A DNA stretch of 55,114 bases from an uncultured Acidobacteriia bacterium. Lineage in GTDB: Bacteria; Acidobacteriota; Terriglobia; Bryobacterales; Bryobacteraceae. Position 1 is the stretch's first letter; each line of letters starts with the position of its first letter. Under the pieces are notes generated by a model. That model searched no databases. It was not told where the DNA came from and saw only the letters and a program-made list of their open reading frames with translations. Positions 437 through 18,128 of this stretch are shown here, in pieces. The stretch spans positions 1 through 55,114 of the forward strand of contig CAIYVZ010000175.1 of NCBI GenBank assembly GCA_903929755.1, read 5' to 3'. The translations under genes and the position numbers were made by a program.

Positions 437-1852
437 ATGACCGAATATCCGATGTGGATCGGCGGCTCAGCCGTCCGGACCGCCACCCCCCGCGCCGTCC
501 AGATCCCCTTTGATGGCAGCATAGCCGGAACCATTTTCGAAGCTGGCCGCGAACAGGTAGACGCCGCCATCGCTGCCGCAGCAGCCGCCGGGCCCGTCAT
601 GCGCGCGCTGACTCGCCATGAACGGTCCTCCATCCTCTACAAAGCCCACAGGCTCCTCGGTGAACGGCGGGAACAGATGGCGCAGGCGGTGGCTTCGGAA
701 TCCGGAAAGCCGATTCGCGAAGCCCGCGTTGAAGTAGATCGTGGCCTCTGCACCCTGCTCTTCTCTGCCGAAGAGGCGAACCGGCTGCACGGCGAAGAAG
801 TCCCCATGGACGCGCACCCCGGTGGCAAGGGCAAGACCGGTCTGCTGATTCGCGAGCCGGTCGGCGTGATCGCCGCCATCACACCCTTCAATTTCCCCCT
901 CAATCTGTCTCTTCACAAGATCGGCCCGGCTATCGCGGGCGGCAACACGGTAGTGCACAAGCCGGCATCGACAACCCCGATCAGCGCTTTGCTGCTGGCG
1001 CAAATCTTTGCCGATGCCGGCCTGCCCTCGGGAGCCCTCAACGTGATCACCGGCCCCGGAGGCGTAATTGGCGACATGCTTTCGTTCGATCCCCGGATCG
1101 CGATGATCACCTTCACCGGTAGCCCCGAGGTGGGTCAGCGCATCCGCAAACTTTCCGGCATGAAGAGGGTGACGCTGGAACTGGGCTCTAACGCGGCTGT
1201 CATCCTGGAGCCGGACGCCGATCTGGACAAAGCAATCCCCAAATGCGTTGCCGGATCGTTCGCGCACTCGGGCCAGGTTTGCATTTCCCTCCAGCGAATC
1301 TTCGCCCACGAGTCGATTCGGGACCAGGTCGCCACCCGGATGGCGGAAATTACCGCGAAGCTCCGGATCGGCCACCCTCTGGAAGATTCGACCGAGGTGA
1401 GTTCCCTCATCACGGAAAACGAAGCCAAACGCATTGAAAGCTGGATCACAGAAGCCACTGCCGGAGGCGCGAAGCTGATTGCGGGCGGCGAGCGCTCCGG
1501 TGCCACCGTCTCCCCCGCGATTCTGACCGATGTGGACCCCGCCGCCAGCCTCTGTGCCCGCGAAGCGTTCGGCCCGGTAGTGGCGGTTAACTCCTACAAG
1601 ACGCTGGATGAAGCGATTGCCATGGTGAATGCCTCCGATTATGGCCTGCAGGCCGGCATGTACACCCGCGACATCGAAAAAGCCTTCCGCGCCGCCCGGG
1701 AATGCCACGTCGGGGGTTTTCATATCAACGAGATCCCGGCCTTCCGGGTGGACCAGATGCCGTACGGCGGGGTAAAGCTCTCGGGTACAGGTCGCGAGGG
1801 CCCGCGCTACGCAGTGGAGGAGATGACGGAACTAAAGCTAATTACCTGGTGA
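437..1852 (+). CDS. NAD(P)-dependent aldehyde dehydrogenase
   Basis: This is a 471-residue aldehyde dehydrogenase superfamily enzyme that oxidises an aldehyde to a carboxylate (or an acyl thioester) with NAD(P)+. The catalytic set is present: Asn152 in FNFPLN, the cofactor lysine Lys175 in VVHKPAS, the general base Glu248 in LELGSNAA, and the nucleophile Cys282 in SGQVCIS. The ELGSNAA and VCISLQR forms resemble the lactaldehyde/phosphonoacetaldehyde and GapN-like subgroups more than betaine aldehyde dehydrogenases, but the substrate cannot be assigned. The ATG at 437 gives a family-length protein with a weak upstream AGG. It starts 40 bp after tRNA-Leu and is followed by the sigma operon after 36 bp. 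Confidence 0.92.
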   Translation: MTEYPMWIGGSAVRTATPRAVQIPFDGSIAGTIFEAGREQVDAAIAAAAAAGPVMRALTRHERSSILYKAHRLLGERREQMAQAVASESGKPIREARVEVDRGLCTLLFSAEEANRLHGEEVPMDAHPGGKGKTGLLIREPVGVIAAITPFNFPLNLSLHKIGPAIAGGNTVVHKPASTTPISALLLAQIFADAGLPSGALNVITGPGGVIGDMLSFDPRIAMITFTGSPEVGQRIRKLSGMKRVTLELGSNAAVILEPDADLDKAIPKCVAGSFAHSGQVCISLQRIFAHESIRDQVATRMAEITAKLRIGHPLEDSTEVSSLITENEAKRIESWITEATAGGAKLIAGGERSGATVSPAILTDVDPAASLCAREAFGPVVAVNSYKTLDEAIAMVNASDYGLQAGMYTRDIEKAFRAARECHVGGFHINEIPAFRVDQMPYGGVKLSGTGREGPRYAVEEMTELKLITW

Positions 1853-11848: not shown

Positions 11849-12391
11849 CTACGCCCCTTCCCAAATTGCGGCAAGGTCCAGCCTGAAACCCTCAACCGGG
11901 CCTTCCCCGTCAATATGGTCGCCCGTTACGATACGGACCTCGCCATTCTTGCGGAAAACATACACCCGCATCCCATCGCCATCGATCAGCCAGCCCAGTT
12001 CCGCGCCGTTGGCGATCCAGTTCCGCATTTTCTGTTGCGCTACGGGTAAACGGTCGGTCGGGGACATCACTTCGATCACGAACTCGGGACAGAGGCGGAG
12101 AAACCCCTGGCGTTCCTCCTTTGTTAACGCCGCAATCCTCGGCTTGGAAATCCAGCCCGCATCGGGAGACAAGGCCGACCCATCCGGCAGAAAAAAGACC
12201 GTACTCGATCCAAACGATCGACCTCCACCTGTCACCCGTGCCCACGTCCCCAGTTGCACGACAACCTCGGCGTCTCGCTGGGCTGTAACCATATCCTGCG
12301 GCTGAATGAAAGTCATGTCTCCAGCCACGCTCAACTCGACCCGCAGGTCGTGATTGAGCTCGCAAAATGCCAAGAAAGAGTTACTTTCCAT
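11849..12391 (-). CDS. Uma2-family (DUF820) PD-(D/E)XK-like protein
   Basis: The 180-residue product matches the Uma2/DUF820 restriction-endonuclease-like fold, with the conserved series LSPDAGWISKPRI, FLRLCPEFVIEVMSPTD and GAELGWLIDGDGMRVYVFR. In this family the Asp of PDA and Glu of the VIEV strand make the presumed nuclease active site. The biological role is unknown although the family is abundant in Acidobacteria and Cyanobacteria. The ATG at 12391 is chosen because it limits overlap with the upstream M20 gene to 11 bases; an in-frame ATG at 12430 would add 13 residues. It is probably co-transcribed with the peptidase. Confidence 0.82.
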   Translation of the reverse strand: MESNSFLAFCELNHDLRVELSVAGDMTFIQPQDMVTAQRDAEVVVQLGTWARVTGGGRSFGSSTVFFLPDGSALSPDAGWISKPRIAALTKEERQGFLRLCPEFVIEVMSPTDRLPVAQQKMRNWIANGAELGWLIDGDGMRVYVFRKNGEVRIVTGDHIDGEGPVEGFRLDLAAIWEGA

Positions 12392-13751
12392 ACTCTTCAA
12401 AGAAATGCGCCAAAGTCCGGATTCCATCAAAGTAATTCCGGATACAGTACTTTTCGTTCGGCGAATGCAGCCCGTCGTCCGGCAGCCCGAAGCCCATCAG
12501 AATCGTGGGAATCCCCAGGTACTTCGCAAAGTCCCCCACAATCGGAATCGACCCGCCCGACCGGGTAAACACCGTCTCCTTGCCGAAGATATCGCTGAAC
12601 GCCTTCGCCGCCACCTGAATCGCATGGTGATCCGGGTTCACCATCAGCCCCGGCCCCGAACTCAGAACCCGAACCTCCGTCTGAATACCCTTCGGCGTAT
12701 TCTCGCGGACAAACGCGCGAACCGCCTCCACAATCTTCACCGGATCCTGCCGCGGCACCAGCCGGATGCTCACTTTCGCCACCGCCTTCGCCGGAATCAC
12801 CGTCTTGGCGCCATTCCCCACGAAACCGCCGGCAATCCCATGCACTTCGAGCGTCGGCCGAGCCCAGGTCCGCTCAAACACCGAGTACCCCGGCTCGCCC
12901 GTCAACGAGGTGGAACCAACCTCATGGGCCAGGTATTCGGTCTCGTCAAACGGCAGATGCTCCCAGCTGGCCTTCTCTTCGGGTGACGGCGGATCTACGT
13001 CATCGTAAATCCCAGGAATCAGCAGGTGGCCATCCGCATCTTTCGCCTTCGACAGCAACTCCACCAACCCAAACACCGCATTGGGTGCCGCCCCGCCATA
13101 CAATCCCGAGTGGAGGTCCCGCGCCGGACCCCTCGACTCAATCTCCATGTAAACCAGCCCGCGCAACCCAATGTTCAGGGTGGGCAGACCCGCAACGTAC
13201 ATCTCTGTATCCGAAACCAGCGCAACATCGGCTTTCAGCTTTTCGGGGTTCTTCTCTACGTATTCCGCAACCGAAATCCCGCCGACCTCTTCCTCGCCTT
13301 CCAGCAGCACCTTCACGTTCACCGGCAGCTTGCCATAGACATCCCGCAGCGCCTCAAGAGCCTTGATCTGCGAATACATCTGGCCCTTGTCATCCGCTGA
13401 CCCGCGCGCGTACAGGTTCCCGTTCCGCTCCGTCGGTTCAAACGGCGGCGTCTCCCAAAGCTCCAGAGGGTCCGGCGGCTGTACATCGAAATGCCCGTAG
13501 CAAAGGACCGTCGGTTTACCCGGCGCATGCAGCCAGTCGGCATAGACCAGAGGGTGCCGCTCCGTCTCAATCAACTCCACATTCTCGAGGCCCGCCGCCT
13601 GTAGTTTGGCCACGCAATACTCCGCCGCGCGGCGCGTATCGGCATTATGCTCCGGGCTGGTGGAGATGCTGGGAATTCGCAGCAACTCCTTCAGTTCTTC
13701 CATGAACCGGGTCTCGTTCTGTTTCACGTAGAGATCGATGGCTTCCGACAT
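12381..13751 (-). CDS. M20-family metallo-dipeptidase
   Basis: This 456-residue cytosolic peptidase is of the CNDP/PepV-like M20 group, which hydrolyses dipeptides with two metal ions. The metal and catalytic residues are visible: His87 and Asp89 in YGHFDVQPP, the bridging aspartate in GSADDKGQ (about 120), the catalytic glutamate in EGEEEVGG (151-158), the aspartate in SDTEMY, and the C-terminal histidine in DGLHSPNEKY. The lid/dimerisation domain lies in the middle (RDLHSGLYGG). The ATG at 13751 starts right at the conserved N-terminus. The end overlaps the Uma2 start. There is no signal peptide. Confidence 0.92.
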   Translation of the reverse strand: MSEAIDLYVKQNETRFMEELKELLRIPSISTSPEHNADTRRAAEYCVAKLQAAGLENVELIETERHPLVYADWLHAPGKPTVLCYGHFDVQPPDPLELWETPPFEPTERNGNLYARGSADDKGQMYSQIKALEALRDVYGKLPVNVKVLLEGEEEVGGISVAEYVEKNPEKLKADVALVSDTEMYVAGLPTLNIGLRGLVYMEIESRGPARDLHSGLYGGAAPNAVFGLVELLSKAKDADGHLLIPGIYDDVDPPSPEEKASWEHLPFDETEYLAHEVGSTSLTGEPGYSVFERTWARPTLEVHGIAGGFVGNGAKTVIPAKAVAKVSIRLVPRQDPVKIVEAVRAFVRENTPKGIQTEVRVLSSGPGLMVNPDHHAIQVAAKAFSDIFGKETVFTRSGGSIPIVGDFAKYLGIPTILMGFGLPDDGLHSPNEKYCIRNYFDGIRTLAHFFEEYGK

Positions 13752-16044: not shown

Positions 16045-16083
16045 AAAAAAGAGGCCTCCCCGCGAAGGGAGGCCTCTTTTTCT
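16045..16083. terminator. Bidirectional rho-independent terminator
   Basis: AAAAAAGAGGCCTCCC and its complement form a long perfect stem around CGCGAA, with A and T runs on the two sides. It lies between the convergent dehydrogenase and peroxiredoxin genes and can serve both. Confidence 0.92.
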
Positions 16084-16110: not shown

Positions 16111-16662
16111 CTACTTTTTATCCTCTGCAGTCTTGCGATGGGCCAGTCGGCTACAGGCTTCATCAACCGCTGTCGGGTCAACTGCCGTGTTGCCAACCTC
16201 AACAAACGCAATCTTTCCATTGATGTCTACAACATAGGAGACACGATTCGCCATGCCATCCGGGCGCAGCGCGCCGTAGGCTTTCGCGGTGGAACGATCT
16301 TTGAAATCACTGAGGAGGGGGAATGAAAGCTTCAGCTGTTCAGCGAAGACTTTCTGGGAGGGGGTGTTATCGGTACTAACGCCAAAAACCTTTGTTTCAT
16401 TACCTTCGAATTTTGCGATACCAGCCTGGTACGCTGTGAATTCCTTCGTTCAACCACCGGTGAACGCGGCCGGGAAGAACGCAATAACCACAGGGTTCTT
16501 GCCCTTAAAATCGGCCAGGGTCACCTTTCCGCCCGTGGTTCCTGTCAGCGTAAAATTCGGTGCGACGTCGCCAACCTTGAGAGGTTGCGCATCGCCCGGC
16601 TGCTGGGCCACGAGCCCCGCGGCTGCCATAACGGTCAGCGCGGCTGCTTTAATCAGCTTCAT
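16111..16662 (-). CDS. Exported peroxiredoxin, probable selenoprotein (Sec71 by TGA)
   Basis: Read through an in-frame TGA (codon 71, 16452-16450), this is a complete 183-residue peroxiredoxin of the BCP/AhpE type with a signal peptide (MKLIKAAALTVMAAAGLVAQ). The thioredoxin fold follows: VGDVAPNFTL, NPVVIAFFPAAFTGG, then TGA, then TKEFTAYQAGIAKFEG, FPLLSDFKDRSTAKAYG and VSYVVDINGKIAFVE, up to TAG at 16113-16111. The TGA stands exactly where the family has its peroxidatic cysteine, so selenocysteine is the natural reading. A SECIS-like hairpin follows directly. The enzyme would reduce peroxides in the periplasm. The alternative is a TGC/TGT to TGA null mutation, but the intact downstream frame and the hairpin argue against it. 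No sel genes are in the window. An ATG-only call would end at 16450 after 70 residues. It lies 27 bases downstream of a DinB gene on the same strand. Confidence 0.85.
16408..16443 (-). promoter_or_regulatory. Bacterial SECIS-like hairpin
   Basis: In the mRNA the upper stem GCG-UACCA pairs with UGGUA-U-CGC (8 bp with one bulged U) around a GGC apical loop at 16426-16424. A 5-bp outer stem, GAAUU/AAUUC, extends it across a small internal loop. The apical loop starts 24 nt after the UGA. Known bacterial SECIS elements lie just behind the UGA, with the loop roughly 16-37 nt away and a G at its start, so distance, bulged U and GG loop all fit recruitment of SelB with Sec-tRNA. Pairing is seen directly; function is inferred. 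Confidence 0.7.
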
Positions 16663-16689
16663 GAGAAGCTCCTTTCGGGATTTAGCGTA

Positions 16690-17265
16690 TCACGATTCGG
16701 CTTCTACTCTGCTGCGGATCAGCCCCGCCTGCCAGATATGACGCCGCTCGTGGGCGCTCATGCTCCGCAGAGCGGTGCCGAACCGCATCACCGCCGGCTT
16801 GAAGAACGGGTTGCGGAACTTCAGGGCGTTCAGGTCCAGGGTGGCGCCCGCGTTGAGGATGCTTCGGAGGTCGTGGTGCGTTTCCGTCCATTGGCGCAAC
16901 ACGTCGGCACTCTCCAAACGCGGGGCCGGTACGATAGCGTTCGGCGCCGGGGCTTTCATCCGGACGGGTGGCTCCAGAATATAGAGGAACCACCGGCCGA
17001 TCAATCCCGTTTGAAGTGGTTCCCGCCTCGGAAATTTTAACGGATCCGCAGTCTCCATCATCGGCTTCATCACCTGGATATAGCCGAGGTTGGTAAGAGA
17101 AAGGTGCTCGATGCATTGCAGAATGCTCCAGCTCTTTCCCTCGCCAGGCTGGCGATTGAGTTGAGCCGCGGAGAGGTTGGAGACCAGTTTGCGGCCGTGG
17201 TTTTCGTTCTGCTCAAAGTCATTGATGATCTCTTGCAGATCGGGTGGAAGGAGGACATTTGCCAT
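16690..17265 (-). CDS. DinB-family protein
   Basis: The 191-residue protein is DinB/YfiT-like: a first helix with AAQLNRQPGEGKSWSILQCIEHL carrying the conserved WS and the metal-site histidine, a middle region, and a final helix with MSAHERRHIWQAG carrying the other histidines. Such proteins bind a divalent metal and may act as thiol transferases; the substrate is unknown. The ATG at 17265 is preferred over a TTG at 17286 that lies in frame 7 codons upstream. It is transcribed toward the peroxiredoxin gene with a 27-base gap, which suggests a two-gene unit with a possible thiol/selenol or stress role (inference). Confidence 0.82.
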   Translation of the reverse strand: MANVLLPPDLQEIINDFEQNENHGRKLVSNLSAAQLNRQPGEGKSWSILQCIEHLSLTNLGYIQVMKPMMETADPLKFPRREPLQTGLIGRWFLYILEPPVRMKAPAPNAIVPAPRLESADVLRQWTETHHDLRSILNAGATLDLNALKFRNPFFKPAVMRFGTALRSMSAHERRHIWQAGLIRSRVEAES

Positions 17266-17333
17266 AAAGTTCACGCGGTGCTTCAATAGTCATACCAGTT
17301 TTCCCGCAACCTCGCGCGGGACGAGGAGAAAGT

Positions 17334-18128
17334 ATGAAACCAGGCATCAGGCAGATTCTTGCGGCAGTCATCGTGGGTTCATTCGTAAGTACATGCGCGG
17401 TTGCGGCTGAACCACAGCTCGCGCGTTTTGAGGTTGCCTCCATCCGCCCAGGCAATAATCCCCACGCCACCTCCATTCGCCGCCAGCCAACCGGGGGGAG
17501 GTTTACTACCCAGAACACCACGCTGAGGGCTTTACTTGCTTACGCTTATGGCGTGCAGGCTCACCAGGTTACAGGCGGTCCGGTGTGGATCGGGACGGAT
17601 CTTTGGGATATCACTGCCAGACCCGAGGGAGAGGTTCCGGAGGGTCTGGAAGGAGACGCCCGTCTCCGCCAGATGATGCAGCATCTGCTGGCCGAACGCT
17701 TCGCGGTTGCCGTCCACAATGAAACGAAAGACCTGCCGGTCTACGGCCTGGTGGTGGCGAAAGCCGGGTCGAAGATGAAGCAGGTGGAGGCCCCCGAGCC
17801 AGCGGCTTTCCGGATGGGAATGAGCCAGTTCACCCTGGTGGGCGATATTTCCCAGCTAATCAGCCAGCTGATTCGGGTGACTGGCCGCAGCGTCGCCGAC
17901 GAAACCGGCCTGAAGGGGAACTACGAGATGAAGCTGAGCTGGACACCCGACCCGGCGCAGCAGGCGCAGATCGCCGCCGCCCACGGAACGGCCCCGGATT
18001 TCGCCGCCGCCGAGGGGCCGTCGTTGTTCACCGCCCTGCAGGAACAACTGGGCTTACGGCTGGATGCCCGTAAAGGTCCGGTGGTCGTTTACACGGTGGA
18101 TAAGGCTTCAAAGCCATCGGAAAACTGA
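17334..18128 (+). CDS. TIGR03435-family exported protein
   Basis: The 264-residue protein has a signal peptide (about residues 1-25, ending VAAEPQ) and the hallmark sequence FEVASIRPGNNPHATS near the mature N-terminus. Further signatures are YGVQAHQVTGGPVWIGTDLWDI, split here as YGVQAHQVTGGP and WDITARPEG, the block LLAERFAVAVHNETKDLPVY, and the C-terminal EQLGLRLDARKGPVVVYTVD. TIGR03435 proteins are numerous in Solibacter relatives and often accompany TonB or BlaR-like genes; their biochemical function is unknown. The ATG at 17334 follows a strong GAGGAGA site. It is divergent from the DinB gene and ends 51 bases before hisS. Confidence 0.9.
   Translation: MKPGIRQILAAVIVGSFVSTCAVAAEPQLARFEVASIRPGNNPHATSIRRQPTGGRFTTQNTTLRALLAYAYGVQAHQVTGGPVWIGTDLWDITARPEGEVPEGLEGDARLRQMMQHLLAERFAVAVHNETKDLPVYGLVVAKAGSKMKQVEAPEPAAFRMGMSQFTLVGDISQLISQLIRVTGRSVADETGLKGNYEMKLSWTPDPAQQAQIAAAHGTAPDFAAAEGPSLFTALQEQLGLRLDARKGPVVVYTVDKASKPSEN

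Follow-up and report, generated by a model that had tools for sequence, protein, structure and literature searches.

A conserved in-frame UGA and a putative SECIS hairpin in an acidobacterial peroxiredoxin gene predicted to encode an exported selenoprotein

Is the in-frame TGA in a peroxiredoxin gene of an uncultured acidobacterium a true stop, or is it read as selenocysteine (Sec, U) at the catalytic position? The question is raised by a frame at 16111-16662 of the window, by which we mean the whole 55,114-nucleotide stretch of DNA that was analysed. The initial annotation had placed a TGA-interrupted frame here and left its strand unstated; the coordinates are correct, and the gene lies on the minus strand. 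A plus-strand reading of the same coordinates was rejected, as its translation holds no peroxiredoxin. The gene and its signals are as follows.

16111..16662, minus: predicted Sec-peroxiredoxin gene, 183 codons plus TAG (translation, domain and sequence matches)
16669..16675, minus: Shine-Dalgarno-like AAAGGAG, 6 bases ahead of the ATG (sequence)
16662-16660, minus: start codon ATG
16450..16452, minus: in-frame UGA, codon 71, at the peroxidatic position, predicted to be read as selenocysteine (translation and ortholog comparison)
16113-16111, minus: stop codon TAG

With the TGA translated as U, the product has 183 residues (MKLIKAAALTVMAAAGLVAQQPGD...AFFPAAFTGG-U-TKEFTAYQAGIAKFEG...DEACSRLAHRKTAEDKK). 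As had been proposed, the frame runs on past the TGA to the TAG and gives a full-length peroxiredoxin on read-through, with the AhpC-TSA domain PF00578 at residues 30-153 (115 bits, cut-off 26). The TGA was also correctly placed at the position of the catalytic cysteine, since the catalytic Cys of Mycobacterium tuberculosis AhpE aligns with residue 71 (U71). Ordinary annotation would probably split such a gene. A comparison with PHROGs returned one family, which is unnamed, and 252 plasmid records contained a match, every one below 60% identity.

A search of the family to which the window belongs gave a match at E 1e-3 in each of its 237 genomes, and codon 71 was compared among the best of these matches. 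The ortholog sample comprises 148 of the best 149 matches listed (down to ~149 bits); G225:C481 was excluded, being cut at a contig end, and L162, which has no usable start, was left out of start-dependent counts (n = 147). We found TGA at this codon in 120 of the 148 listed orthologs, TGC in 27, TGT in one, and no other codon, which is the Cys/Sec exchange that the initial annotation had suggested looking for. Past the TGA (103 codons), seven same-genus orthologs had dN/dS values of 0.03-0.10 in the 19 pairs (of 21) for which the ratio could be computed, and the region before it was about equally low (0-0.12 in 18 of 21 pairs), although these ratios are only rough because dS is large (0.5-2.9). 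By this measure, the segment downstream of the TGA is under purifying selection. The recurrence of the TGA and the selection beyond it argue that the gene is not decaying. A pseudogene or sequencing error, with the TGA as a true stop in a decaying gene, has the in-frame TGA itself in its favour and nothing else, and we consider it vanishingly improbable: relatives share the TGA or replace it with TGC or TGT alone, their downstream frame is open and conserved rather than decayed, dN/dS past the TGA is low, and the hairpin described below is tied to the TGA state.

The advised search for selA, selB, selC and selD was made in the genome that the window comes from (6.86 Mb in size, 97.9% complete), and all four were found. 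Neither outcome that the initial annotation had set against its reading, a lack of selB and selC or downstream decay in relatives with the TGA, was observed. The tRNA-Sec scored 69.7 bits, above the Rfam cut-off, and ARAGORN reported a SeC tRNA with anticodon tca; selB (342.6 bits), selA (500.2 bits) and selD (360.2 bits) were each above cut-off. An in-frame TGA (AAG-TGA-ASKL) also interrupts this genome's selD (L019). Across the family, selB was matched at E 1e-60 in 188 of 237 genomes, 186 of them above cut-off, and the tRNA-Sec search covered 22 of the 49 genomes without such a match, namely those with an ortholog in the sample. Among the listed orthologs, 118 genomes carry a TGA copy; selB was found in 103 of them and tRNA-Sec in a further 13, and the two with neither are 79 and 80% complete. 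The Cys-only genomes (n = 22, listed orthologs) comprise 15 with selB, one more with tRNA-Sec and six with neither. Machinery and a TGA copy are associated over the 140 genomes with a listed ortholog (Fisher p 0.0002, with genomes that are not independent). The machinery alone is no predictor of Sec, because those 15 Cys-only genomes retain selB. Sec and Cys copies were observed together in six genomes among the listed orthologs. In two of these six, at G059:C135:16159-17356 (L068, L089) and G122:C299:59974-61089 (L168, L113), Sec and Cys peroxiredoxin copies adjoin on the same strand.

The comparison of Sec and Cys orthologs also revealed a candidate SECIS element just after the UGA, absent from the description in the initial annotation.

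16415..16434, minus: putative SECIS hairpin, columns 19-38 counted from the U of UGA (comparison, folding)
16419-16431, minus: apical core UACCA-GGC-UGGUA of this hairpin

The spacing from the UGA to the apical loop GGC is 23 nt. A three-base loop, mostly GGC or GUC, is closed by pairing of columns 22-26 with columns 30-34. Pairs 23-33, 24-32 and 25-31 are formed in all 120 listed Sec orthologs, pair 26-30 in 96% and pair 22-34 in 88% of them, and the three outer pairs (19-21 with 36-38) in just 63-85%. The commonest stem is UACCA/UGGUA; the double-change variants (UUCCA/UGGAA or AUCCA/UGGAA, UAUCA/UGAUA, and UACCG/CGGUA) each sit in two to four related rows and amount to about four events, so that few independent changes underlie the covariation. 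Over the 120 listed Sec rows (105 distinct), the eight-pair structure had 86.9% of its cells paired, with double changes in six pairs, and a covariation of 0.135 versus 0.050 in shuffles (0 of 500 as high); further pair types in these rows were not above shuffles (163 of 500). The 28 listed Cys rows were 47.8% paired (32 of 500 shuffles as high), with covariation within shuffles (59 of 500). At least four pairs of the five-pair core were present in every listed Sec row (100 with all five) versus two Cys rows out of 28, where L059 forms four pairs and L101 five. This Sec-versus-Cys contrast is the stronger evidence, because related rows can beat shuffles without any structure. On these counts, the putative SECIS hairpin is retained in Sec orthologs and lost in most Cys orthologs. 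L101 (G082, 487-531, plus strand), a TGC ortholog in a genome with selB, keeps the core whole and looks like a recent Sec-to-Cys change.

The case for the hairpin rests on comparison because its single-sequence fold in the window is unremarkable (-9.1 kcal/mol, z -1.54; 17 of 200 shuffles fold as well). Mean folding energy at the UGA was -11.2 kcal/mol in 120 Sec genes versus -9.4 kcal/mol in 27 Cys genes (p 0.005), and three other offsets of the profile gave p 0.08-0.91. We prefer the pair counts because this energy difference is modest and is matched at some other positions. These results also bear on whether the UGA might be decoded as another residue (Cys via a selC-like tRNA-Cys, or Trp) or passed by plain read-through. 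Cys-charged selC-like tRNAs are described in the available part of PMC7609411, and with Cys as the sole replacement seen, an inserted Cys would function too. Even so, such decoding is very improbable in a genome that has a tRNA-Sec above cut-off together with SelA, SelB and SelD, and for a gene whose SECIS covaries and is mostly missing where the codon is TGC or TGT. Because close relatives share both the UGA codon and the RNA hairpin after it, the gene appears to encode a real, conserved selenoprotein, and we hold the reading as a genuine selenoprotein and AhpE/BCP-like peroxiredoxin with high confidence.

The structure model, for which alignment A4 was the input, is a confident peroxiredoxin fold (pLDDT 91.2). 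Sulfolobus Bcp4 and Bcp1 were the top two Foldseek matches, and M. tuberculosis AhpE (Rv2238c) was among the best (TM by query 0.76-0.78) and gave the best PDB sequence matches (E 2e-22). Across 29 aligned orthologs, P64 and T68 of the PxxxTxxU motif were nearly invariant, and E74 and R140 were invariant. The protein has a single cysteine that could resolve an oxidised Sec71.

16153..16155, minus: codon for Cys170, a C-terminal-helix residue and candidate resolving cysteine (ortholog conservation, model helix 164-182)

C170 is the sole other cysteine of the window's protein and is kept in 148 of 148 listed orthologs; with 71 set aside, 14 positions, C170 among them, are identical in all 147 that were aligned. 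Not counting residue 71, 142 of 147 listed orthologs have one cysteine in their mature part and the other five have two. BCP/PrxQ enzymes, which the protein resembles in fold (Bcp4 and Bcp1), carry their resolving Cys a few residues past the peroxidatic Cys; here that near Cys is missing, with none found within ten residues past position 71 in any of the 148 listed orthologs. PRK09437, used as a test for BCP/PrxQ, scored 72.6 bits, below its cut-off of 140. A resolving Cys in the last helix is found in Prx5-type enzymes. In AhpC-type enzymes, the resolver is a C-terminal Cys of the other subunit, according to the available text of PMC5124861.

Cys positions were also tabulated in a wider set drawn from titled genome contigs, namely the best 80 loci of the scan (more matches exist). 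TGA stands at codon 71 in 44 of these 80, of which 37 have C170 and none of those 37 a near Cys; among the seven TGA loci without C170, three have a Cys at U+4. L216, L239 and L242, TGA peroxiredoxins from Planctomycetota and an acidobacterium, carry a Cys at U+4 and lack C170. In this small set, the candidate resolvers at U+4 and at position 170 look mutually exclusive. Alignment A4 is no argument for C170 conservation, because wider loci lacking C170 were left out of it, 41 of the 80 being kept.

From conservation and fold, we think it somewhat probable that oxidised Sec71 is resolved by C170. PDB titles and the available part of PMC8945050 describe AhpE as a 1-Cys peroxiredoxin. As AhpE chains are the nearest solved sequence relatives and are also among the best folds, the window's protein might instead be a 1-Sec enzyme of that kind, for which a low-molecular thiol or a thiol protein would be the direct reductant, with C170 serving in folding, dimer contact or metal binding. 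This pair of proposals, taken jointly, seems unlikely to us given that C170 is present in every listed ortholog, as one of so few fully identical positions, and that the wider TGA loci mostly pair C170 with the lack of a near Cys, three of the seven others having the U+4 Cys.

Where the protein would act depends on its N-terminus.

16606..16662, minus: predicted N-terminal export signal, about residues 1-19 (MKLIKAAALTVMAAAGLVA/QQ), with a putative cleavage site (composition rule)

The export rule was crude, calling for a 12-residue core of mean hydropathy >1.6 with Lys/Arg ahead of it, and it was passed by 131 of 147 listed orthologs, the window's gene among them. Of the signal peptide claimed in the initial annotation, what stands is the passing of this rule. 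Among the 16 failures, L025 is cut by a contig end and the other 15, by eye, have a start segment that ends in AQ or GQ. The MERRSF... start of six orthologs (L120, L121, L129, L132, L135 and L141) is twin-arginine-like, and lineages may therefore differ in their use of the Sec or Tat export route. Going by its sequence, the protein is probably exported to the periplasm.

The surroundings of the gene were compared among relatives. Over 71 loci (flanks <=3 kb, 14 largest clusters), no redox partner was seen by eye among the recurrent neighbours; besides the peroxiredoxin, these clusters span 5-14 loci each, and several are overlapping or antisense frames. In the window, no link to the peroxiredoxin was seen for the following neighbours.

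17334-18128, plus: Soli_TIGR03435/DUF3738
16690-17286, minus: DinB_2
11849-12430, minus: Uma2

At 16050-16077, between a convergent PQQ-dehydrogenase-like gene (plus) and the peroxiredoxin gene (minus), agaggcctcc/ggaggcctct make up an inverted repeat that has T-runs on either strand. By eye, it looks like a shared terminator.

Sec-peroxiredoxins with a TxxU motif are an established bacterial selenoprotein family, as described in the available parts of PMC1794560, PMC5029168, PMC9312934 and PMC13188914, with counts of 12 Prx in the first and 91 in 78 organisms in the second. The window's protein shares with them (PF00578/COG1225, TxxU; e.g. Eubacterium acidaminophilum) the PF00578 domain, the PxxxTxxU motif, a peroxidatic UGA and a bacterial SECIS, here a predicted one. 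It differs in adding a signal-like N-terminus and a conserved Cys in the C-terminal helix, the candidate resolver, and its form is spread through Acidobacteriota. The NCBIfam PrxU equivalog NF040737 scored 46.5 bits (with C for U), below its cut-off of 270. AhpE differs as a 1-Cys enzyme with Cys in place of the predicted Sec at 71. Because AhpE is 1-Cys and BCP/PrxQ resolves elsewhere, the protein is best viewed as a variant of the known TxxU family.

Single members may already be catalogued, because the available parts of PMC1794560 and PMC12013277 count acidobacterial and Anaeromyxobacter selenoproteins: the former credits Acidobacteria with 4 selenoproteins of 3 families, and the latter credits the acidobacterium Occallatibacter riparius with 3 known selenoprotein genes. 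Table 3 of PMC1794560, which covers 18 selenoprotein-rich organisms, places Sec-peroxiredoxins mostly in anaerobes and lists three in Anaeromyxobacter dehalogenans. The C170 form itself may thus be catalogued unremarked, because one of our wider loci (L241) is from Anaeromyxobacter. Open PMC text, to which the literature search was confined, yielded no paper on a Sec-peroxiredoxin that is exported or acidobacterial.

Within the best 80 wider loci, the 37 with TGA and C170 comprise 36 from Acidobacteriota (Terriglobia 13, Blastocatellia 4, class not given 19) and one from Anaeromyxobacter. Ten titled wider loci are identical to family orthologs over the stretch that begins 40 residues ahead of position 71 and runs to the C-terminus. 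At the usual place, a hairpin with a three-base loop was predicted in 25 of the 37 and one with a four-base loop in one; none was predicted in 11, ten of which (L192, L194, L195, L203-L205, L207, L208, L210 and L237) form one strongly supported tree group of acidobacterial Sec forms. Several hairpin-less Sec forms share wider-spaced TTCCAGC...GCTGGAA-like arms. This group perhaps has a different SECIS.

A quick tree was built from 178 proteins, 150 with Sec and 28 with Cys, without a mixture model, with long-branch warnings and a midpoint root. The Sec/Cys label changes 15 times on it, at least seven of these changes being forced by strongly supported branches, compared with 26.5 in shuffles. 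The far side of the midpoint root holds 25 rows, all Sec, all from the wider scan and with no family loci, which suggests that Sec is ancestral and Cys derived. With a midpoint root, and with wider rows that had been selected on C170, the direction from Sec to Cys is probable rather than shown. Sec was probably ancestral in the clade and repeatedly replaced by Cys. This differs from Table 1 of PMC1794560, which for Prx gives five Cys-to-Sec and zero Sec-to-Cys changes.

In the mechanism we propose, SelB with Sec-tRNA would decode UGA71 as Sec, aided by the downstream hairpin, and the product, with its predicted signal peptide, would reach the periplasm. There, as conservation and fold suggest, the Sec71 selenolate would attack H2O2 or organic peroxides, the selenenic acid would be resolved by Cys170 to a selenenylsulfide, and a periplasmic thiol reductase would then reduce it. 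The combined picture, of an ancestral exported acidobacterial Sec-peroxiredoxin with a Sec71-Cys170 cycle, providing selenium-dependent extracytoplasmic peroxide defence and undergoing many Sec-to-Cys swaps followed by SECIS loss, is tentative and as a whole leans slightly towards doubtful. If it is true, the clade is a natural experiment on why Sec stays or goes. In any case, one acidobacterial family offers a large, clean set (at least 120 Sec and 28 Cys orthologs), in which the decay of the hairpin can be traced where Sec has been replaced; this set would allow direct tests of the cost and benefit of Sec and of what a SECIS requires within a coding sequence.
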